Below are positions 403 to 10,694 of a DNA stretch of 41,472 bases, one piece after another. The stretch covers positions 1 through 41,472 of the forward strand of contig CAIOJL010000144.1 in the NCBI GenBank assembly GCA_903858595.1, written 5' to 3'. This DNA comes from an uncultured Spartobacteria bacterium (GTDB lineage: Bacteria; Verrucomicrobiota; Verrucomicrobiia; Chthoniobacterales; UBA6821). Below the pieces are notes generated by a model, which worked only from the letters and a program-made list of their open reading frames with translations, was not told where the DNA came from and searched no databases. The first letter of the stretch is position 1. Each line of letters starts with the position of its first letter. A program made the position numbers and the translations under genes.

Positions 403-1011
403 CTATTTTCCACCGCGGCGGCGGTTGGGTCGGGGTCGCTTAGCCGCAGTTGATTCACTCTCAGGCTTGGCTGAACTAGCTGAACTAGCCGGTTCATCAG
501 ACTGCTCGTGCCGGGGGTCGGTTTCCGAGTCTCCCCGATCTTCTCGATAAGAAGGGGCAGAGGACGGAGCGGTTCCATCATGCTCCTCGAAATCGCCCTG
601 ATGACGATCGTCTCGGTGACGATCCTCCGTACGATCTGTCTGATCGTGATCCTGGTGAGGCTGATTGGGCTGACGGTTCTCCTGCTGGCGTCCCCGCTGC
701 TGGCGGTCGTCGCGTCGGCCTCCCCCCCCACTCCCTCCACCCTGTTGCTGATTCTGCTGGCGCTGTCCCTGCTGTTGGGGCTGAGGGTTGCGCTCCTGCT
801 GGGCCCGCTTTTGCAGTGCTGAGGTAAGCTCCTTCAGCGATGCGACAAGATGGACGCCAAGGTCACCCTCGGGTTCGTGTGCCTTCTCGATAGACTCAGC
901 CACTCCCTCGACGGCGCCCGTGAGGCTCTCGAGGGCCGATTGGATGGATTTGAGGCTGAGAGCAATGCTCTTGAGGAATTCTGTGTTGGGGTCTGTTTCT
1001 GGAGTGCTCAT
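403..1011 (-). CDS. Q/R-rich low-complexity protein of unknown function
   Basis: The protein has 202 residues. The first 70 or so form a plausible amphipathic helical region (LKSIQSALESLTGAVEGV). The rest is disordered and very rich in Q, R, D, G, S and P, with QQQ and GGGSGGGG runs, and it ends in a basic tail, KRPRPNRRRGGK. I chose the ATG at 1011 because it overlaps the TGA of the upstream DUF1365 gene (TGATG), which suggests translational coupling. I recognise no family. A basic disordered tail would suit nucleic-acid or polyanion binding, but this is only inference. It is the last gene of the parB/desaturase/amine oxidase/DUF1365 run. Confidence 0.6.
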   Translation of the reverse strand: MSTPETDPNTEFLKSIALSLKSIQSALESLTGAVEGVAESIEKAHEPEGDLGVHLVASLKELTSALQKRAQQERNPQPQQQGQRQQNQQQGGGSGGGGRRDDRQQRGRQQENRQPNQPHQDHDQTDRTEDRHRDDRHQGDFEEHDGTAPSSAPSYREDRGDSETDPRHEQSDEPASSASSAKPESESTAAKRPRPNRRRGGK

Positions 1012-1877
1012 CAATTTGAATGGAGATCAGTGGAATTTTTGGAATCTGTATCCGGATCAGAGTGGGCGCAGGAAGAGGGATGGTTGGCGAGAGATTTATG
1101 GGGCCTGTGGACTCCGCGTTGCAGTTCAGGAAGTTCTTCCTTGCGGCGAACCGTGAGGCCTTTCAGCCAGAGAAGAAGAGCCTGCCAGTGAATGCCAAAA
1201 ATGACCTGGAGTGTCAGGAACGGGTATTTGAGCGAAAAGAGCAGGAGATTCCGATCGGTGAGGGGGACTCTGACCCCGGTGAGAACACTCATCAGCTCTC
1301 GCTCCTCGCCGCGGTAGTCATCGATGAAGACCTGAAGGCGCTCGCCCGGGAGCTGAAAACGGAACTCAAACTCCAGATCGAGGTCTGAAAAGGGGGAGAC
1401 ATAGAAGTGCTTCACCACGCGACTCAAGAAGGTCCCGTCTGCCTGGAGAGGAACCAAATACGGTTTCCATTCCCCGAAGGTATTCCCAACCTCGACCACC
1501 GAGGTAAGAGGGGCACCTGCTGTGTCGAAGCAGTAGTAGATCGAGACCGGATTAAAAATATAACCAGCGATCCTGGGTAGTGTGAGGAGCTGGATCTTTC
1601 CGACGGGCGCTGAGATTCCCTGCGCGGCGAGGTAAACGATGATGTTTTCCCGCGCTGAGACTGGATGAGCCACGTGACTGATGTGATCGCTCTCCCGGAA
1701 GCTGTAGAGGCCGAGCCGGTTGACCTTCAGCAGGAAGAGTGAGCGGTCGATAGTCTCCAGTTCGTCGAGGTCGATCAGGAGGTAAAAGACGCTATAGAGG
1801 AATTCATGCTCTTTCGGTGCCAGTCGCCGATGAAAGACCGTGCACTCGTAGAGACACGAGCTAAGAGGGGAAGGCAT
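1011..1877 (-). CDS. DUF1365 family protein
   Basis: A DUF1365 protein of 288 residues, close to the usual family length. Family features are the N-terminal LYECTVFHRRLAPKEHEF, the FYLLIDLDELE strand, SFRESDH, the central GYIFNPVSIYYCF segment and VEVGNTFGEW. The frame stays open to a TTG at 1979, but family alignment favours the ATG at 1877. Neither start has a Shine-Dalgarno site. The biochemical activity of DUF1365 is not established to my knowledge. Its genes often sit beside an FAD amine oxidase and a cyclopropane-fatty-acid synthase. Here it follows the amine oxidase, and a desaturase stands in the cluster. A role in modifying membrane fatty acids is inferred from this context. Confidence 0.85.
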   Translation of the reverse strand: MPSPLSSCLYECTVFHRRLAPKEHEFLYSVFYLLIDLDELETIDRSLFLLKVNRLGLYSFRESDHISHVAHPVSARENIIVYLAAQGISAPVGKIQLLTLPRIAGYIFNPVSIYYCFDTAGAPLTSVVEVGNTFGEWKPYLVPLQADGTFLSRVVKHFYVSPFSDLDLEFEFRFQLPGERLQVFIDDYRGEERELMSVLTGVRVPLTDRNLLLFSLKYPFLTLQVIFGIHWQALLLWLKGLTVRRKEELPELQRGVHRPHKSLANHPSSCAHSDPDTDSKNSTDLHSN

Positions 1878-2029
1878 GGGGAAAATTACTATGGAACTCA
1901 GGAATTCAGGAATCTTCGACAGATTCTCAAAGAAATCGTGGAGCGATGATACAGGCGCTAGCCGATGAAAGACTTTCAAGAATAGAAGAAGTTGGGATGA
2001 CCTTTTTTCTTGAGTTCATGAGTTCCAGA

Positions 2030-3337
2030 TTAATTATTTTTTAAAAATCGGATCACTGCCTTCGCCGCGTTGAATCCCGCCATGCAGGCATCCTCATGGA
2101 AGCCGTAGCGGAAGTAGCTTCCGCAGAAGAAGAGACGTCCCGCGTGATTGAGCTTCGGAAGTTCCCGCTGAGCTCGTATGGCCTCGAGAGTGAAGACGGG
2201 ATGCTCGTAGGTCGTCTGGTAAAGAATGCTCGAAGGCGCGATCAGATCATCGCTATTCAAGGAGACGAAGTAATCCCTCTTCTGGGAGACGCCCTGCAAG
2301 GCATTCATCCAATAATGGGTGGCTGCTTTCTGATGAGAATCTGACCCCTGCTCGACACGGAAATTCCACGAGGCCCAAGCCCTGCGGCATTTTGGCATCA
2401 CCGAGGCATCGGTGTGGAGGGAGGCTTCGTTTTGCTGGTAGTGGAAGGCCGAGAGGAGGCGACGTTGATCCTCGGAGGGATGGGTCAGGAGTTGAAGGCT
2501 CTGATCGGCGTGGGAGGCCAGGATGACCGCATCGAAGCGCTCGCGGACTCCCGAAGCCGTAGTGACCCAGGCGCCACCTTCCTTTTCTTCTACGGAAATA
2601 ACGGGATCGCCGAGGCGAGGCTGGCCCAACGTCTCCAGCATTTTGTTCACATAGGTGCGGGCGCCGCTATCCACCGTGAACCAGGGATGGTGCGTAGTGA
2701 TTCCGAGGAATCCATGGTTATGAAAGAAGTGCAGCAGCGTCGAGGCCGGGAAGTCGAGGATGCGGCCTGGCTCTGTGGACCAGACGGCGGAACTCATCGG
2801 AACCAGATAAAGATCGAGGAAATCTCGGCCGAAGCCATATCTCTTGCAGAATGTGGCCAGATCCTCAGTATCGAAATCCGCTTTCTCATCCGAGGAGTCA
2901 TTCTCGGACTCATCACGCAGCCACTTTCTGCCGACACGAAAGAAGCGCATTATCTCGGCGATCAGCATGAGGAAGCGGAAGTTTCCGAGATTGCGGCGTT
3001 GAGCAAATAGCTTGTCCAGCCCCATCCCGTTGTACTCCAGGCCGCTTGCAACATGCTGAACACTGAAGGACATCTCGCTCAGCTTGATAGCGATGCCAAG
3101 TTCAGAAAAGAGACGGCAGAGATGGGGATAGGTGACCTTGTTAAAGACGATAAATCCCGTGTCGATCGGGATCGCGCACCCGTCCTCCTCAACAGTCACG
3201 GTGTTCGTATGGCCGCCAGGTCGTTTCTCCGACTCGAAGAGGGTCAGATCCGCGAGGTCGCGCAGTCCCCACGCGCAAGAGAGGCCTGAGACCCCCGTAC
3301 CAATGATGGCTACGCGCGGAAGATCTTTATTTTTCAT
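2030..3337 (-). CDS. FAD-dependent amine oxidase-like protein
   Basis: A flavoprotein of 435 residues with an N-terminal dinucleotide-binding motif (VAIIGTGVSGLSCAWGL), an acidic residue after the second strand (LFESEKRPGGHTNT), and a C-terminal FAD-binding segment (RLFFCGSYFRYGFHEDACMAG). It belongs to the COG2907-type amine oxidase/desaturase-like group commonly found with DUF1365 genes. The substrate is unknown; an acyl chain or phospholipid is likely from context. The gene overlaps the end of the upstream desaturase. An AGGAGG lies 12 bases before the ATG at 3337 but only 6 bases before an in-frame TTG at 3343, so initiation may really be at the TTG. Confidence 0.85.
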   Translation of the reverse strand: MKNKDLPRVAIIGTGVSGLSCAWGLRDLADLTLFESEKRPGGHTNTVTVEEDGCAIPIDTGFIVFNKVTYPHLCRLFSELGIAIKLSEMSFSVQHVASGLEYNGMGLDKLFAQRRNLGNFRFLMLIAEIMRFFRVGRKWLRDESENDSSDEKADFDTEDLATFCKRYGFGRDFLDLYLVPMSSAVWSTEPGRILDFPASTLLHFFHNHGFLGITTHHPWFTVDSGARTYVNKMLETLGQPRLGDPVISVEEKEGGAWVTTASGVRERFDAVILASHADQSLQLLTHPSEDQRRLLSAFHYQQNEASLHTDASVMPKCRRAWASWNFRVEQGSDSHQKAATHYWMNALQGVSQKRDYFVSLNSDDLIAPSSILYQTTYEHPVFTLEAIRAQRELPKLNHAGRLFFCGSYFRYGFHEDACMAGFNAAKAVIRFLKNN

Positions 3338-4268
3338 GAACAAGCATGTCCTCCTGCCTGTAGACACTTTCCGGAATACGCTTGAGATTGCTGATGACAC
3401 CCAGCGCTGCTAGTAGGCGCAGGGCATAGTAGGTGGGGTCGATCTCCCACCAGTAGAATCCCTGCCGTGCCGAGGACTGGTAGCGGTGGTGGTTGTTATG
3501 CCAGCCCTCGCCAAGGGTGATGATGGCGAGCAAGAAACTGTTGCGGCTGTCATCGCCGGTGTCATAGCGGGGTGTGCCCCAGACATGGGCCATGGAGTTA
3601 ATACAGCAGGTACCGTGGAAGAGCAGAACGGTGCTGATGAAGCCACCCCAGACAAGCATTTGGGGGCCGGAGGTATGGAGTTCCGGAGCCAATGACTGAA
3701 GCACAACTCCCAGACCGTAGCTAAGGAGGGCAACCAGCAGGGGGCCGATCAGATCGAAGCGATTCAGAAAAACGAGTTCCGGAAATTTCGCCAGATCCGG
3801 GATCAGGCTGTAGTCCGTGGGGAAGTTCCTGCTGCTGGTCATCCAGCCGATGTGAGCCCAGAGAAAGCCTTTCTGCTTAGGGGAATGGACATCCACCTCC
3901 TCGTCCGAGTGGGCGTGATGATGCCGGTGGACTGCGGCCCACCAGAGGGCTCCGCGTTGGACGCAAAGCAGTCCGAGCATGGCAAAAAGGAACTGAACGG
4001 GACGGGAGGCCTTGTAGGATTTATGGCAGAAGTAGCGGTGATAGATGCCGGTGACAAAGAACATCCGCACGACATAGAGCGACGCGCAGACGGCCAATGC
4101 CACGGGGCTCCAGCCAACCCAGAGGGCCCCGAGACATCCGAGATGCAGGATGATGAAGGGGAGGGCCCTGCTCCATTCCATGTGCTCGGGCATGGCGCGC
4201 GTCGCCTCGATCCCCTTGGGAAAGTAATCCGAGTCGATGAAACGGATCAATGGGCTCAGAGCGCGCAT
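3327..4268 (-). CDS. Fatty acid desaturase, acyl delta-9 type
   Basis: An integral-membrane diiron desaturase of 313 residues. The three histidine clusters of the stearoyl/acyl-CoA delta-9 class are present: HRYFCH (77-82), HRHHH (114-118) and HNNHH (257-261), plus the conserved NSMAHVWG (H228). Hydrophobic stretches lie near residues 35-75, 92-105, 172-195 and 205-222. The expected reaction is O2-dependent insertion of a cis double bond into a saturated acyl chain. It starts 15 bases after parB and overlaps the amine oxidase gene, so these genes are probably cotranscribed. The acyl carrier (CoA, ACP or phospholipid) cannot be read from the sequence. Confidence 0.92.
   Translation of the reverse strand: MRALSPLIRFIDSDYFPKGIEATRAMPEHMEWSRALPFIILHLGCLGALWVGWSPVALAVCASLYVVRMFFVTGIYHRYFCHKSYKASRPVQFLFAMLGLLCVQRGALWWAAVHRHHHAHSDEEVDVHSPKQKGFLWAHIGWMTSSRNFPTDYSLIPDLAKFPELVFLNRFDLIGPLLVALLSYGLGVVLQSLAPELHTSGPQMLVWGGFISTVLLFHGTCCINSMAHVWGTPRYDTGDDSRNSFLLAIITLGEGWHNNHHRYQSSARQGFYWWEIDPTYYALRLLAALGVISNLKRIPESVYRQEDMLVHEK
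3350..3355 (-). promoter_or_regulatory. Shine-Dalgarno site AGGAGG of the amine oxidase gene
   Basis: On the minus strand AGGAGG ends 6 bases before a TTG (3343) and 12 bases before the ATG (3337). It lies inside the last codons of the desaturase gene. It is the only full Shine-Dalgarno consensus I found at a start in this window, and its spacing favours the TTG. Confidence 0.55.
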
Positions 4269-4283
4269 GATGCTATTCTGTCA

Positions 4284-5231
4284 TCAATCAAGCGAGATGC
4301 CAAATTCGCCGATCAGGCGGTGGAGATCGTCGGAACCGAAATACTCGATCTCAATACGCCCCCTCTTGTCGGCGTGGTGGAGGCTGACCCGGGTCGCGAA
4401 GCGGTGCTGGAGCTTGTTTTCCAGATGTTTCAGTGCGGGGGGAAGTTCGGCCAATGAGCGCACTGTCTTTCCTCTACCTTTTTTCACTTTGGTGCCGGCC
4501 AGATGTGCCGCCACGAGTTGCTCGGCATCGCGCACGGAGGCATTCATCCTGATCAGCTTCTCGGCCAGTAGGCGCTGCTCCTCGGGGTTCTTGAGACCAA
4601 GTAGGACTTTGGCATGACCGACAGTCAGTCGCCCCTGAATTAGGTGTGCCTGAACTTCGGGGTCGAGTTCCATGAGACGCATCGCATTGGCGACCGCGGC
4701 CCGGCTTTTGCCGACGCGCTTGGCGATATCTTCCTGAGTCAGGCGGAATTCCTTGGAAAGTCGGCTGTAAGCGGCGGCTTCCTCGATGGGATTCAGGTCC
4801 GCCCGCTGAAGGTTCTCGATCAGCGCCAGCTCCAGGACTTCCTGATCGGAGGCTTTGCGAACAATAACCGGGGCCTCGGTCAGGCCGACTTCGAGGGAGG
4901 CGCGCATACGGCGCTCACCGGCGATGAGTTCATACTTCCCACCCGCCAGTCTAACGATCAGGGGCTGGATAATGCCACGTTCCCGAATGGAATCAATCAG
5001 GTCACGGAGCTGGTCATCTCGGAACTCTGTGCGGGGTTGGAGAGGGCTCGCAACGATCTGGTCGAGGCGGATCTGCTGGATGCGTTCGCCATACTCCTCG
5101 GAAGGGGTGGTGGCCGCAACCCGTGTGTTAATGAGTGCTCCAAGGCCTTTGCCCAAACCTTTGCCGAGACCCTTTCCCAGTCCTTTGCCAACTGGTTCTT
5201 TGGGGGCGCTTCCTGAGTCTGACGTTGCCAT
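4284..5231 (-). CDS. parB: Chromosome-partitioning protein ParB
   Basis: ParB of 315 residues. After a short N-terminus come four tandem GKGL units (residues 15-30) ending in GALI; the usual chromosomal ParB has one or two. The CTP-binding N-terminal domain contains SPLQPRTEF (62-70) and GERRMR (105-110), followed by ENLQRADLNPIEEA. The DNA-binding helix-turn-helix is at about 164-187 (LTQEDIAKRVGKSRAAVANA). A C-terminal dimerisation domain follows. I chose the ATG at 5231 because the frame upstream has no family similarity. ParB binds parS and slides as a CTP-dependent clamp in origin segregation. No parA gene is present in the window, and parB leads the desaturase operon. A parS-like sequence lies in thiE at 14865-14880. 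Confidence 0.95.
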   Translation of the reverse strand: MATSDSGSAPKEPVGKGLGKGLGKGLGKGLGALINTRVAATTPSEEYGERIQQIRLDQIVASPLQPRTEFRDDQLRDLIDSIRERGIIQPLIVRLAGGKYELIAGERRMRASLEVGLTEAPVIVRKASDQEVLELALIENLQRADLNPIEEAAAYSRLSKEFRLTQEDIAKRVGKSRAAVANAMRLMELDPEVQAHLIQGRLTVGHAKVLLGLKNPEEQRLLAEKLIRMNASVRDAEQLVAAHLAGTKVKKGRGKTVRSLAELPPALKHLENKLQHRFATRVSLHHADKRGRIEIEYFGSDDLHRLIGEFGISLD

Positions 5232-5314
5232 AAAGTGGAGCGTAGAGCAGGTAGTAAGGGATCGGGAAGAAAAAGGTGTGGCGGGTTGGCTCACAGAACG
5301 TTCAGCATCCCAGA

Positions 5315-6013
5315 ATGTTTTCCAGATTGGATCTCCTGATTCCCATGCATCCCGTGGAATCGTTCGACGGGCCGATGCAGATGGCTCTAGACGAAGTGCT
5401 TCTCCGGCAGGTGTCGGTGCCAACGCTCAGAATTTATAAGTGGAAGTCTCCTTGGGTGACTTTTGGCTACTTTCAGGAGATAAAAGAAGTTCAGCGTAGC
5501 TTTCCCAGCCAACCTGTCGTGAGGCGCTGGACGGGGGGAGGGATGGTCTCTCACTCCCATGAGGAGGAAGAGGAATTGACTTTTTCCCTTATGATTCCGG
5601 CCGGGGAAAAAATAGCGACTGAATCTCCGGCTTCTTTCTACAAGCAATTGCATGGCAAATCGGCTGGTTGGATCCGATCTCAACTCCCGCTCTCCGTGAA
5701 TCTAGCCGGAAGTGAGGACGTGAAACCAGGGTCTTCCTGCTTTCAGGCGCCGGCCAATGACGATCTCCTGATCCAGGGAAGGAAGGTGCTTGGAGGTGCA
5801 CTCCGACGCAGTGGTGGAGGTTTACTCTACCAAGGCAGTCTGAAGATATCGGATATCCCGGGCTGGGATCCTGCTCGGATCTCTCCGATGGCATGGGCGG
5901 ATGCTTTCAGTGCTTCCCTTGAACCAAAGCAACTGGATGCTCCGATCCTAAGGGAAGCCGAGGAGTTGGTCAGGACGCGCTATGGAACCACGGGATGGAA
6001 TCATCGCAAATAA
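5315..6013 (+). CDS. Lipoate-protein ligase / octanoyltransferase family protein
   Basis: A biotin/lipoate ligase-fold protein of 232 residues. It shows MALDEVLL near the N-terminus, RRWTGG (70-75), SCFQAP with C142, GRKVLGGALRR with K157, and LYQGSL. The cysteine after a serine is as in LipM octanoyltransferases, and the lysine matches the acyl-binding lysine of LplA/LipM. Between the conserved VxH and the ELT(F/Y)S strand there is an extra acidic stretch (SHEEEE). It probably transfers an octanoyl or lipoyl group to a lipoyl domain. A GTG at 5276 would add 13 residues; I preferred the ATG at 5315 since the family's first strand begins right after it. The gene is divergent from parB. Confidence 0.75.
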   Translation: MFSRLDLLIPMHPVESFDGPMQMALDEVLLRQVSVPTLRIYKWKSPWVTFGYFQEIKEVQRSFPSQPVVRRWTGGGMVSHSHEEEEELTFSLMIPAGEKIATESPASFYKQLHGKSAGWIRSQLPLSVNLAGSEDVKPGSSCFQAPANDDLLIQGRKVLGGALRRSGGGLLYQGSLKISDIPGWDPARISPMAWADAFSASLEPKQLDAPILREAEELVRTRYGTTGWNHRK

Positions 6014-6143
6014 ATCAAAGGTACTCGAAGTGAGAGGGAATCCTGAGGCAACTTCGATACTTCATGTCGGTATTGTCACACGAAAGGGATTGTTCTCAGG
6101 GGTCATGGTGACGCAGTATCTTCATTTAAACCCAACAAAAATC

Positions 6144-7226
6144 ATGAAAAACCACTCTATTCAGCTCCGGATTTTAGCTTCGGCAACCATGCTGGCCGGC
6201 GTTGCATTCGTAACATCCTGTCAAAAAGCTCCCAATCCATCTTCCTCGGAAGTTCCCAAGGAAACGGTGCCTAAACAGGCAGGGACCCTTCTGAATGGTT
6301 CTGGAGCTACTTTTCCGGCCCCTATGTATCTTCGCTGGGCTTCTGATTTTCACAAGGCCACCTCTGATATCACCGTGAACTACCAAGGCGTTGGAAGCGG
6401 TGCGGGCATCAAGCAGTTCACGGATGGAATCACGGATTTCGGCGCCAGCGACGTCGCGATGTCCGACGCCGAGATCGCCAAGGTCAACGGCAATGTCCTG
6501 ATGCTGCCTGCAACGGCAGGAACGATCGTGCTCGCCTACAACATCCCCGGAGTTCAGGGCGGCTTGAAGCTCTCCCGCAGCGACTATGTCGGCATCCTGC
6601 TCGGCACCATCAAGAGCTGGAATGATCCCGTCATTGTCAAGGATAACGATGGCATCGCGCTTCCTAATCTTCCGATCACGGTTGTAGCCCGTTCGGATGG
6701 CAGCGGAACCACCGCCGTCTTCACCGCTCACTTAGACGCCATCAGCCCCGAATTCACCAGCAAGGTCGGAAGCGGCAAGTCGGTGACCTGGCCCATCGGC
6801 GTAGCCGGCAAGGGCAACGACGGGGTGACCGCTCTGATCAAGCAGACCCCCGGAGCCATTGGTTACGTGGAGTTCGGTTATGCCGAGAACAATAAGCTGA
6901 CCATGGCAGCTCTCCAGAACAAGGCCGGCAACTTCATCGCCCCCACCATCGAGAGTGGTGCAGCGACACTGGCTTCGGTGAATCTTCCCGAGAATCTCCG
7001 CGCCTTTATCACCGATCCCGAGGGAGCCAACGACTATCCGATCGCAACCTTCACCTGGCTCCTTGTGAAGAAGACCTATACCGATGCCAACAAGGCGGCA
7101 GCGGTGAAGGCCTTCGTAACCTACGGACTCACCACCGGTCAGGCTATCGCTCCCGAACTCGGATACATCGCGCTTCCTGCAAACGTAGTGACTAAGGTTC
7201 AGACCGCGCTGGCAACTGTCAAGTAA
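6144..7226 (+). CDS. pstS: Phosphate ABC transporter substrate-binding lipoprotein PstS
   Basis: PstS of 360 residues that captures phosphate for the Pst importer. The N-terminus is a lipoprotein signal peptide with lipobox VTSC (C26). The mature protein carries the family hallmarks LNGSGATFPAPMYLRW, YQGVGSGAGIKQF, FGASDVAMSD and the phosphate-contacting RSDGSGTT. I chose the ATG at 6144 because it gives a proper signal peptide; the frame opens earlier, at 5982, without one. The upstream gap (6014-6143) is the likely promoter region of the operon, but I could not identify a convincing Pho box. Confidence 0.96.
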   Translation: MKNHSIQLRILASATMLAGVAFVTSCQKAPNPSSSEVPKETVPKQAGTLLNGSGATFPAPMYLRWASDFHKATSDITVNYQGVGSGAGIKQFTDGITDFGASDVAMSDAEIAKVNGNVLMLPATAGTIVLAYNIPGVQGGLKLSRSDYVGILLGTIKSWNDPVIVKDNDGIALPNLPITVVARSDGSGTTAVFTAHLDAISPEFTSKVGSGKSVTWPIGVAGKGNDGVTALIKQTPGAIGYVEFGYAENNKLTMAALQNKAGNFIAPTIESGAATLASVNLPENLRAFITDPEGANDYPIATFTWLLVKKTYTDANKAAAVKAFVTYGLTTGQAIAPELGYIALPANVVTKVQTALATVK

Positions 7227-7254
7227 GGCTCTCCTACCAGCGGCCATCATCCCC

Positions 7255-8217
7255 GTGGGCGATAATATTTCAACGACTGGGCCATCCCGTCCCGTCACCC
7301 AGGAATATCGTCCGCGTCCGGACTTCTTCCGGATGGCCTGTTTTCTGGCCTCGGTCCTGACCATCGTACTCCTCGCTTTCATTATCGGCGAGATCCTGGT
7401 CAAAGCTTGGCCGGCCATGATCAAATTTGGCCTCGGGTTCATTACGGGCATCCAGTGGAGCCCTAATAGAGGGGTCTTCGGCGTTCTCCCGGTGCTTATC
7501 GGTACCGTAGCTAGCAGTTTCTTGGCTTTGCTTCTGGCTCTACCCTTAGGGCTGGCGATCGCCATTTTCCTGAGCGAGGATTTTTTCCCGGCACCCGTGC
7601 GCCAAGTCATTCGTTTCGTGGTGGAGACGCTGGCGGCTATTCCCAGTGTTGTCTACGGACTGTGGGGAATCTTCGTGGTGATTCCTCTGGTCCAGCAGTA
7701 CGGGGCAGTGCTTGCCGCCAAGTTCGGATTCATTCCCTTCCTGGCCGGTCCCGCCTACGGCAATAGCCTGCTGACCGCCAGTCTTGTTCTGGCCCTGATG
7801 GTCCTTCCGACCATCACCGCGATCTCACGTTCCTCCTTGGTGGCTGTTCCTTATACACTGCGCGAAGGATCCTATGCCCTTGGCGCCACGCGGTGGGAGA
7901 CCATCCTGAGCGTCATCATCCCAACGGCTGCTCCCGGCATCGTCGCCTCGGGCATCCTGGGTTTTGGCAGGGCCATGGGAGAGACCATGGCCGTTGCCAT
8001 GCTCATTGGAAACAGCCAGCGTCTCTCCTGGTCGCTACTCTCTCCCTCCAACACGCTCTCCGCGCTTCTTGCCAACCAGTTTGCAGAGGCCGACGGAATT
8101 CAGGTCAGCGCTCTCATGTATGCCGCCGCGCTGCTGGTCGTGCTGACCCTAGGCGTGAATATCGCGGGCGAGGCGGTTCTCCGGCATACGCAAAAAGCCA
8201 CGGCAGGCCTTCGTTAA
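7255..8217 (+). CDS. pstC: Phosphate ABC transporter permease PstC
   Basis: PstC of 320 residues, one of the two Pst permeases. About six transmembrane segments are visible, starting with FFRMACFLASVLTIVLLAF (around residues 22-40). The permease loop with the conserved glycine occurs in EGSYALGATRWETI, and GFGRAMGETMAVAMLIGN is typical of PstC. The start is a GTG at 7255, 28 bases after pstS, with no Shine-Dalgarno site. Partner genes pstA and pstB follow. Confidence 0.94.
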   Translation: MGDNISTTGPSRPVTQEYRPRPDFFRMACFLASVLTIVLLAFIIGEILVKAWPAMIKFGLGFITGIQWSPNRGVFGVLPVLIGTVASSFLALLLALPLGLAIAIFLSEDFFPAPVRQVIRFVVETLAAIPSVVYGLWGIFVVIPLVQQYGAVLAAKFGFIPFLAGPAYGNSLLTASLVLALMVLPTITAISRSSLVAVPYTLREGSYALGATRWETILSVIIPTAAPGIVASGILGFGRAMGETMAVAMLIGNSQRLSWSLLSPSNTLSALLANQFAEADGIQVSALMYAAALLVVLTLGVNIAGEAVLRHTQKATAGLR

Positions 8218-8230
8218 AATCGAATAAGCC

Positions 8231-9121
8231 ATGACAAGCACAGCAGCAACATCACCCAAAAACTTCTTCTCAGATGCCGGAAAGAAGACTTCCTTGCTCC
8301 GGTTATTTCGCAATCATTTCCTTACAGGTCTCTGTATCGCCATCTCCCTGCTGACGCTGGTGCCGCTTTTTTCGATTATCGTTCTGGTGATCAAGAACGG
8401 CCTTCCTCTGCTTTCTACAAATCTCTTCACGCAGCTTCCTCCTGCTCCCGGCTTGGATGGGGGAGGTTTTGGCAATGCCATTGTGGGGACACTAGTTATG
8501 GTCGGGATCTCGCTTGGTTTCTCTGTTCCGCTGGGGATTCTAGCCGCTGTTTTCGTGAATGAATACGCATCCGTCTCATGGTTGGCTTCCGTCGTGCGCT
8601 TCGTTGCCAAGCTACTCACCGGGATTCCCTCGATCATCTGCGGTGTTTTTGCGTTTGCCGCTGTGGTGATGACGACCCACAAGTTCTCGGCACTCGCGGG
8701 TGGCCTAGCCCTGGCCATCCTGATCCTGCCAACGATCCTGCTGACTGCAGAACAGGCACTACTGGGGGTTCCCTATGCCTTCCGGGAGGCCTCGTTCGGT
8801 GTCGGAGCTACTCCCTTCCAGACGATCTGGTGCATTGTTCTTCCCGAGGCGATGCCCGCCATCATGACCGGAGTCATGCTAGCCGTAGCGCGCGCTGCGG
8901 GTGAGACCGCCCCCGTGCTTTTCACCGCCCTTTTCAGCCAGAACTGGATCAAGGGTATCATGGAGCCAACGGCATCCCTTTCGGTGCTGATCTATAATTT
9001 CGCCTCCCTTCCCTATGCCTATCACATCAAACTTGCCTGGTCCGCCTCGCTGATCCTTGTAGTCCTCGTGACTCTCAGCAATATCTTGGCACAGGTGATC
9101 TTTGCTCCCAAACACCACTAA
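8231..9121 (+). CDS. pstA: Phosphate ABC transporter permease PstA
   Basis: PstA of 296 residues, the second Pst permease. It has about six transmembrane segments, an initial cytoplasmic stretch, then [20 protein letters not shown]. Family signatures are [22 protein letters not shown], the coupling loop [15 protein letters not shown] and [16 protein letters not shown]. It starts with ATG 13 bases after pstC. PstA and PstC form the membrane channel energised by PstB. Confidence 0.95.
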
Positions 9122-9150
9122 GAAATCTTTCAACCAGCACAACCGGAATC

Positions 9151-9987
9151 ATGTCTACCGAAGAACACGCCGCCACGCCAACCGAAGCTTCTGAATGGCC
9201 CTTGGAACCAACCAATAATTTTGCTCCAGGCGAAAACAATTTTATCAAGGTCGATAACTTCAAGTTCTTCTACGGGAAGAAGGAGGCTCTCCACGGGATC
9301 AATCTGGAGATTCCCTCGCGTAAAGTAACCGCCTTTATCGGACCCTCTGGCTGCGGAAAATCGACCCTGCTCCGCAATTTCAACCGAATGAACGAACTCA
9401 TCCCCGGGGTGCGTCATGAGGGGGATATCACTATCCATGGCACGAGCATCTACGATCCCTCGGTTGAGATCATTGCGCTGCGTCGCCGCATCGGGATGGT
9501 CTTTCAGAAATCGAACCCATTTCCCATGTCAATCTACGAGAACATCGTCTATCCCCTCCGTATCGCTGGTCAGAACACCCGTTCCGTCCTTGATGAGACA
9601 GTGGAGCGCTGTCTCCGTTCAGCAGCCCTCTGGGATGAGGCAAAGGACCGCCTCAACGATAGCGCCCTTGGCCTCTCCGGTGGCCAGATGCAGCGTCTCT
9701 GTATCGCCCGTGCGGTGGCTAGTCGTCCCGAGATCCTGCTCATGGATGAGCCATGCTCCGCTCTGGATCCGATCGCCACAGCTAAGGTCGAAGAACTCAT
9801 TATCGAACTCAAGAAGGACTTCACGATAGTGATCGTCACCCACAACATGCAGCAAGCCAGTCGTGTCTCCGAGCTCACTGCCTTCTTCTACCTGGGTATC
9901 CTGATCGAGTTCGACAATACTCGCAAGATCTTCACCAATCCCTCGATGAAGCAGACCGAGGAATACATCACCGGTCGGTTCGGGTGA
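9151..9987 (+). CDS. pstB: Phosphate ABC transporter ATPase PstB
   Basis: PstB of 278 residues. Walker A is GPSGCGKST (64-72), the Q-loop lies in [18 protein letters not shown], the signature LSGGQ is at 175-179, Walker B is ILLMDEP (about 195-201), and the switch histidine is in [19 protein letters not shown] is specific to PstB. The first 30 residues are a polar extension before the ATPase domain. It hydrolyses ATP to drive phosphate import by PstC/PstA. Confidence 0.96.
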
Positions 9988-10007
9988 TCTCAGTTCCCCC
10001 CTTTTTT

Positions 10008-10694
10008 ATGTACAAAGAACCTGCCAAACCTCACACGCTCACGAATTTCACGACGGCCCTCGACCAGCTCCGCAGCAGCGTGCTGAGGATGTCAAGCCTC
10101 GCCCAGCTGAATCTCCAGAATTCCATCAAGGGGTTGTTGGAGCGAGACGACGACTGGTGCAATAACTGCATCGCTGACGACGAGGAGATCGATCTGCTAG
10201 AGATGCAGATCGACCACGAGGGCATCGAGGTGATGAGTCGCTTTCAACCGGTTGCCTCGGATCTGCGCGAGGTAATCTCCTCGATCAAGATCGGGGCGAA
10301 TATCGAACGCGTCGCCGACCAGGCTGTGAATATCGCCCGTCGCGCCCGCAAGCTGAACGAGCAACCTGAGTTGACGGAACTCCACCTGCTGGACAACCCA
10401 ATCCGCCTTTCGCTAACGATGTTCGATGATGCCGTCCGCGCCTTCGCCGAGCGTAATACGGAACTCGCGGTGGAACTTAAATCCCGTGACAAGGAGCTCG
10501 ATCTTCTCAACAAAGAACTCACCGATACCCTGATCAACAGGATGCAGGACGACTCGCCCAATCTCCCGAGTTATCTCAATCTGATCTTCATCAGCCGCTG
10601 TCTAGAGCGTATCGGGGACCATGCCTGCAATATCGCAGAGGATATTGTCTTCGCGGTGAGCGCTCAGGATATCAGGCATCTTGGGAAGCAGTAG
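10008..10694 (+). CDS. phoU: Phosphate regulator PhoU
   Basis: PhoU of 228 residues made of two similar three-helix PhoU repeats, with metal-binding style motifs DDEEIDLLEMQIDHEGIEV and, in the second half, SRDKELDLLNKEL. RFQPVASDLREVIS and RCLERIGDHACNIAEDIVF are conserved family segments. PhoU restrains the Pst transporter and the PhoR kinase when phosphate is plentiful. I chose the ATG at 10008; a GTG at 9984 overlapping the pstB stop would add eight residues. It closes the pst operon. Confidence 0.95.
   Translation: MYKEPAKPHTLTNFTTALDQLRSSVLRMSSLAQLNLQNSIKGLLERDDDWCNNCIADDEEIDLLEMQIDHEGIEVMSRFQPVASDLREVISSIKIGANIERVADQAVNIARRARKLNEQPELTELHLLDNPIRLSLTMFDDAVRAFAERNTELAVELKSRDKELDLLNKELTDTLINRMQDDSPNLPSYLNLIFISRCLERIGDHACNIAEDIVFAVSAQDIRHLGKQ

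Follow-up and report, generated by a model that had tools for sequence, protein, structure and literature searches.

Furan fatty acids are synthesized in Rhodobacter sphaeroides and Rhodopseudomonas palustris by a pathway comprising UfaM, UfaD, UfaO and FufM (Lemke et al. 2020, PMC7380195, cited throughout from parts of its text). In R. sphaeroides, the substrate of UfaM is cis-vaccenate, and UfaD and UfaO are the final two enzymes in the synthesis of the 9M5 furan fatty acid, UfaO being the one that carries the DUF1365 domain; the proven substrate of FufM is a monomethyl furan fatty acid (PMC7380195). The same parts of the article already state that homologues of UfaM, UfaD and UfaO occur across bacteria. 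The R. sphaeroides pathway is induced by singlet oxygen under the control of ChrR, and, judging by the locus tags, its ufaM (RSP2144) is far from ufaO (RSP1090) and ufaD (RSP1091). Our comparison set consisted of eight named alphaproteobacterial genomes, seven of Rhodopseudomonas and that of Bradyrhizobium BTAi1. Each of the eight had a single DUF1365 gene, with the start of a CMAS gene 1.2 to 1.4 kb away in every case. Where the gene order was read (four genomes of the Rhodopseudomonas group), the UfaD, UfaO and UfaM homologues were consecutive in all four and the DUF1295-FufM homologues were located elsewhere. Azospirillum sp. B510 and Salinivibrio proteolyticus harbor a cluster of an FAD oxidoreductase, a DUF1365 protein, a protein of the cyclopropane synthase family and a DUF3833 protein, and this UfaD-UfaO-UfaM type of order is shared with the relatives of the bacterium studied here. 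The annotation of the stretches inspected in these two shows only a single gene of the cyclopropane synthase family and no desaturase, and the neighbors are a sigma factor, an SDR protein, a photolyase and a DUF2878 protein, unlike the parB found in our case.

We analyzed a contig of an uncultured Spartobacteria bacterium (order Chthoniobacterales, phylum Verrucomicrobiota), which very probably carries part of such a furan fatty acid (FuFA) pathway. The window, i.e., the whole stretch of 41,472 nt that was analyzed, is all of contig C144 of a 2.35-Mb assembly in 242 contigs (95.95% complete). Next to parB (4284 to 5231; ParB_N and HTH_ParB), which is their upstream neighbor on the minus strand, lie four genes. 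These encode an SCD-type acyl desaturase (3327 to 4268; PF00487, 7.9e-18), a UfaD homologue that is an FAD protein of the amine oxidase superfamily (2030 to 3337; PF01593, 3.5e-24), a UfaO homologue (DUF1365; 1011 to 1877; PF07103, 5.6e-71) and a 202-residue Q/R-rich protein (403 to 1011), probably disordered and with matches in its genus only. The contig ends about 400 nt past the last gene. The run of genes described in the original prediction was confirmed, all four being genuine, tightly spaced and on the minus strand. The description of overlapping or coupled starts throughout applies only in part. The desaturase gene, separated from parB by a 15-nt spacer, overlaps the FAD gene by 11 nt, if the start of the latter is taken to be the ATG at 3337 (the GTG at 3400 being a mechanical ORF call), and the DUF1365 gene (ATG at 1877) overlaps the Q/R gene by 1 nt (TGATG), the A of the UfaO stop codon being also the first base of the Q/R start (ATG at 1011). 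The FAD and DUF1365 genes, in contrast, are about 150 nt apart.

By homology, the FAD "amine oxidase" is the counterpart of UfaD, and the DUF1365 protein that of UfaO. The former was 38% identical (282 bits) to the product of the ufaD-like gene adjoining ufaO in R. palustris 2.1.18 and matched LkcE (6f7l) over residues 7 to 423 in a search of PDB sequences (1.6e-26). The latter was 38% identical (153 bits) to the DUF1365 protein of the same strain, and overall the identity to the UfaD, UfaO and UfaM homologues of R. palustris 2.1.18 was just 38 to 39%. DUF1365 occurred in only 1 of 14 control genomes, and the two genes are adjacent in the window, as expected for the furan pathway. For UfaO, no PDB sequence was matched up to E = 1. 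An alignment of 76 rows (10 of 86 having been left out for length) revealed conserved polar residues, namely H16, R18, D64, N109, N132, T133, K156 and S161, in at least 73 rows; since no histidine cluster was seen in it, we do not propose a metal site.

The original prediction had remarked that no cyclopropane synthase is visible next to this pair and had proposed to look for one elsewhere in the genome. The remark is correct within the window, but the genome encodes three CMAS-family proteins, two on contig C32 and one on contig C176. Because the family was present in 13 of the 14 control genomes, its presence by itself proves nothing, and the case rests on subfamily scores. In the four Rhodopseudomonas-group genomes read, each of our proteins matched its own counterpart. 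At the place of UfaM in R. palustris 2.1.18, one of the C32 proteins reached 286 bits, compared to 161 for the C176 protein. At the place of FufM, assigned in this strain by subfamily and by its layout beside DUF1295, the second C32 protein reached 320 bits with 48% identity, compared to 75 for the UfaM-like protein. Conversely, the C176 protein scored 427 bits at the place of the CFA synthase, compared to 187 for the C32 UfaM-like protein. With 593.7 bits against an NCBIfam cut-off of 600, it falls just under the threshold for a cyclopropane synthase, which it likely is. The genome thus encodes homologues of all four enzymes of the furan pathway, and those of UfaM and FufM differ from the protein that is likely its cyclopropane synthase. 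Unlike in Rhodobacter and Rhodopseudomonas, the UfaM-like and FufM-like genes are side by side with a DUF1295 gene between them. This DUF1295 gene (L010, 6201 to 6998) adjoins FufM, as it does in the four Rhodopseudomonas-group loci read. After FufM lies a gene for an MGDG synthase-like glycosyltransferase (L010, 8012 to 9160), also seen in L064, L068, L069, L073, L077 and L080 and hinting at a link to glycolipids.

DUF1365 had 40 matches, distributed over 38 of the 77 related genomes. To see how these genes are arranged in the order, we fetched the flanks of 38 of these matches, all but the one in the window and an additional, partial one in G055. This partial match (L075, 13032 to 13478) lies about 5 kb from the first one, inside a fetched stretch. 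Many relatives have in common the order desaturase-UfaD-UfaO-UfaM-DUF1295-FufM. Of the four-gene order to which the original prediction had drawn attention, the desaturase-FAD-DUF1365 part is therefore conserved beyond chance and the Q/R gene is not. UfaM was found downstream of UfaO in 18 of the 38 loci (at a distance of up to 0.6 kb in 12, of 1.5 to 6.3 kb in 4 and of about 7.7 kb in 2) and was not seen in the fetched flank in 20. parB was present in 26 of the 38 loci, in the window's genus and in families f7, f10 and f13. One locus (L065) had UfaO and no UfaD match despite 8.2 kb of upstream room.

In the window's genus, none of the 14 loci other than the cluster of G010 had UfaM downstream of UfaO, three of them (L048, L049 and L053) offering less than 3 kb of downstream room. 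A search of whole genomes, with a limit of E up to 1e-80 that we chose in order to exclude ordinary cyclopropane synthases, detected UfaM in 41 of the 77 genomes. With the exception of G010, UfaM was on the contig of FufM in all 14 genomes of the genus having UfaM, and 13 of these 14 have DUF1365 and carry it on a different contig from UfaM. UfaM, DUF1295 and FufM were together in 10 of the 11 FufM loci fetched from the genus, and the 8 loci with enough contig had ndk, an aspartate aminotransferase gene and a polyprenyl synthase gene upstream of the three. Family f7 showed both a UfaM on another contig than UfaO (G027, G045, G053 and G072) and a UfaM 7.7 kb from UfaO (G061 and G066). The three genomes of genus g2 (G018, G019 and G021) each had two UfaM-like genes; one belongs to the cluster, whereas the second is on a different contig and resembles the window's type more closely.

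In the phylum as a whole, DUF1365 was found in 64 of 288 genomes, of which 61 do not belong to the order. We fetched 40 of these 61 loci, one per genus and covering 40 of 42 genera. UfaD was present in 38, UfaM in 33, FufM in 24 and DUF1295 in 22; UfaM was not seen in the fetched flank in the other 7. The two loci with no UfaD are L293, which stops at UfaO, and L268, which offers 2.8 kb upstream. In 8 of the 40 loci (L290, L291, L292, L294, L295, L296, L297 and L298), UfaO and UfaM formed one open frame of 653 to 701 residues, with DUF1365 first and both Pfam domains detected in all 8. L077, considered as another such fusion, was rejected because of a stop codon in the stretch. Many members of another phylum thus carry furan fatty acid gene sets, which often include the dimethyl branch, and the DUF1365 protein, the FAD protein and the two methyltransferases keep together although they are split, swapped or fused.

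The desaturase does seem to belong with the furan set. Its best PDB match (phmmer) was acyl-CoA desaturase 1 (4ymk, 3.7e-26, residues 31 to 301), and the boxes of the diiron site (HX4H, HX2HH and HX2HH, in addition to H228 and N224) are present. H77, H82, H114, H117, H118, N224, H228, H257, H260 and H261 were invariant in 51 of 51 aligned rows, L282 (28% identity) having been dropped beforehand. We presume that these nine histidines and the asparagine have the roles assigned to them in SCD1. This pattern, common to the SCD family, bears out the original assignment to the diiron type, and the protein is far below the cut-off of the NCBIfam equivalog DesA_fam_desat (85.8 versus 400 bits). The genome has three further desaturases, of which only that of L007 resembles this one (36% by tblastn). 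The best FabA score in this 95.95% complete genome was 39.2 bits, against a cut-off of 238.15. The linked SCD-type desaturase and a genome without FabA above the cut-off both set the bacterium apart from the Rhodobacter and Rhodopseudomonas pathway.

In 30 of the 35 loci of the order having UfaD, a desaturase gene was located no more than 5 kb from it, and two of the five others (L047 and L072) begin at a contig edge. Outside the order this was the case in 21 of 38 loci of the phylum, a count that includes L282, whose desaturase is 28% identical and probably belongs to another subfamily. The arrangements outside the order varied, the desaturase gene preceding UfaD or DUF1295-FufM in some loci and running divergently, either beyond UfaM-DUF1295 or ahead of UfaD, in others. 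It could nevertheless be that the furan set is real and that the desaturase is a housekeeping neighbor serving bulk membrane unsaturation. Comparable loci with no desaturase within 5 kb of UfaD do exist, namely 17 of the 38 outside the order and all 4 of the Rhodopseudomonas group, indicating that it is not needed everywhere. However, linkage within 5 kb in several arrangements compares with about 2% expected by chance, based on four desaturase matches in 2.35 Mb in an estimate that ignores kinship, and we consider a mere neighbor rather unlikely. Together with the histidine pattern and the FabA result, this linkage makes it probable that the desaturase introduces the double bond methylated by UfaM.

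This linkage is the modest novelty of our finding. Among the matches listed for DUF1365, furan fatty acids and UfaO-UfaD-UfaM, we found no report of a linked desaturase in titles and abstract openings or in the available parts of PMC7380195 and PMC10940516, a scope outside which most subscription papers fall. On the same level of titles and abstract openings, the matches for furan fatty acids in Verrucomicrobia were gut, rumen and nutrition work, and those for fatty acids or desaturases of Verrucomicrobia contained nothing in point. We tentatively suggest that, in this phylum, six genes may form a module in which a dedicated O2-dependent desaturase feeds UfaM, with a furan ring that is possibly shifted. 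If the desaturase were a delta-9 enzyme and UfaM, UfaD and UfaO acted at a Rhodobacter-like distance, the ring would be two carbons nearer the carboxyl end, i.e., 8,11-epoxy rather than 10,13-epoxy, and the dimethyl furan fatty acids made would belong to another series. This clearly predicts both the desaturase supplying the pathway and the position of the ring. To our knowledge, such bacteria are not known to produce dimethyl furan fatty acids.

The product could also be another modified acyl chain, for instance a methylated diene, with DUF1365 carrying out a chemistry other than ring closure in this phylum. The authors of the UfaO study allow other roles for DUF1365 (PMC7380195, in the parts cited), and the UfaO homologue of R. 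palustris is just 38% identical to ours. FufM, however, which acts on a monomethyl furan, accompanied DUF1365 in 37 of the 41 genomes holding either, which fits a furan product and makes a different one improbable. Among the 77 genomes, DUF1365 and FufM occurred together in 37, DUF1365 only in 1, FufM only in 3 (G006, G017 and G020) and neither in 36. For DUF1365 and UfaM, the respective numbers were 37, 1, 4 (the same three and G037) and 35. The one genome with DUF1365 and no UfaM or FufM match in the whole-genome search was G001. In G017 and G020, the FufM contig ends inside the UfaM gene, so UfaO may have been cut off. Since the genomes are related, these counts and those for linkage are not independent and are less telling than they look.

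The phylogenies of UfaD (80 rows) and UfaM (69 rows, 4 of 73 having been dropped for length or as CFA-type rows) both placed the window's genus in one clade (100/100), with f7, f10 and f13 nearest. This concordance indicates that UfaM was relocated rather than replaced in the genus. One genome of the same genus, G010, differs. Its Q/R gene follows parB with no desaturase, UfaD and UfaO between, and its DUF1295 match comes 38 nt after the polyprenyl synthase match, UfaM being missing there. It harbors a complete desaturase-UfaD-UfaO-UfaM-DUF1295-FufM cluster on contig C56, which contains its sole UfaM and groups with family f6 in both trees. G010 thus seems to have lost both halves and gained a whole set, which connects the genes of the window with the UfaM located apart from them, with the proviso that this genome is 85% complete with 2% contamination and that a stray contig is possible.

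A synthase-type gene that follows in relatives and was moved here, the very outcome named beforehand as speaking against a new pathway, is therefore what we observed. The proposal of an undescribed pathway in which the desaturase, the flavoprotein and DUF1365, with or without the Q/R protein, act on a new double bond with no methyltransferase takes its appeal from the genus, where these genes form their own run at parB with no methyltransferase gene found nearby, and was rejected as highly improbable in view of the UfaM and FufM homologues in the genome, their linkage to the set in relatives and co-occurrence with DUF1365, the concordant UfaD and UfaM trees, the fusion of UfaM to DUF1365 elsewhere and the persistence of the Q/R protein without the set in G010. 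What stands of the original prediction is a fatty acid modification that probably starts from a newly made double bond; it is not undescribed, as a UfaM homologue is present in the genome and the pathway is known from Rhodobacter and Rhodopseudomonas (PMC7380195, in the parts cited).

In the furan fatty acid pathway that we favor, the SCD-type desaturase would first introduce a cis double bond into an acyl chain. The C32 UfaM homologue would then methylate the chain at this double bond with SAM and shift the bond, an activity shown for UfaM in Rhodobacter (PMC7380195, in part) and assigned here by homology. UfaD (2030 to 3337) would desaturate again, yielding a methylated conjugated diene, and UfaO (1011 to 1877) would add an oxygen atom derived from O2 and close the furan ring, to which the C32 FufM homologue would add a second methyl group. 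These last three steps, predicted here from homology, were shown or proposed in Rhodobacter or Rhodopseudomonas (PMC7380195, in the parts cited). The genes probably formed one block originally, from which, in the genus, UfaM-DUF1295-FufM became separate from desaturase-UfaD-UfaO. Judging from the literature, the likely benefit would be a membrane shielded from singlet oxygen and other oxidants.

The Q/R-rich protein, which the original prediction had included in the system, would take no part in this pathway. It matched nothing in Pfam or NCBIfam up to E = 0.001, and R, Q, G and D are abundant in its tail. Its first 80 residues were matched in 15 of the 16 genomes of the genus (its own included) and in none of the 61 others. 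Because of this restriction to the genus and because it follows parB without the three enzymes in G010, we rejected it as a pathway member and judged it to be a passenger of the parB locus. On the other side of parB and divergent from it, the window contains a plus-strand run (5276 to 10694) that begins with a lipoate ligase-like gene, followed by what, judged by eye, is apparently a phosphate uptake run (a binding protein, two permeases, an ATPase and a PhoU-like protein).
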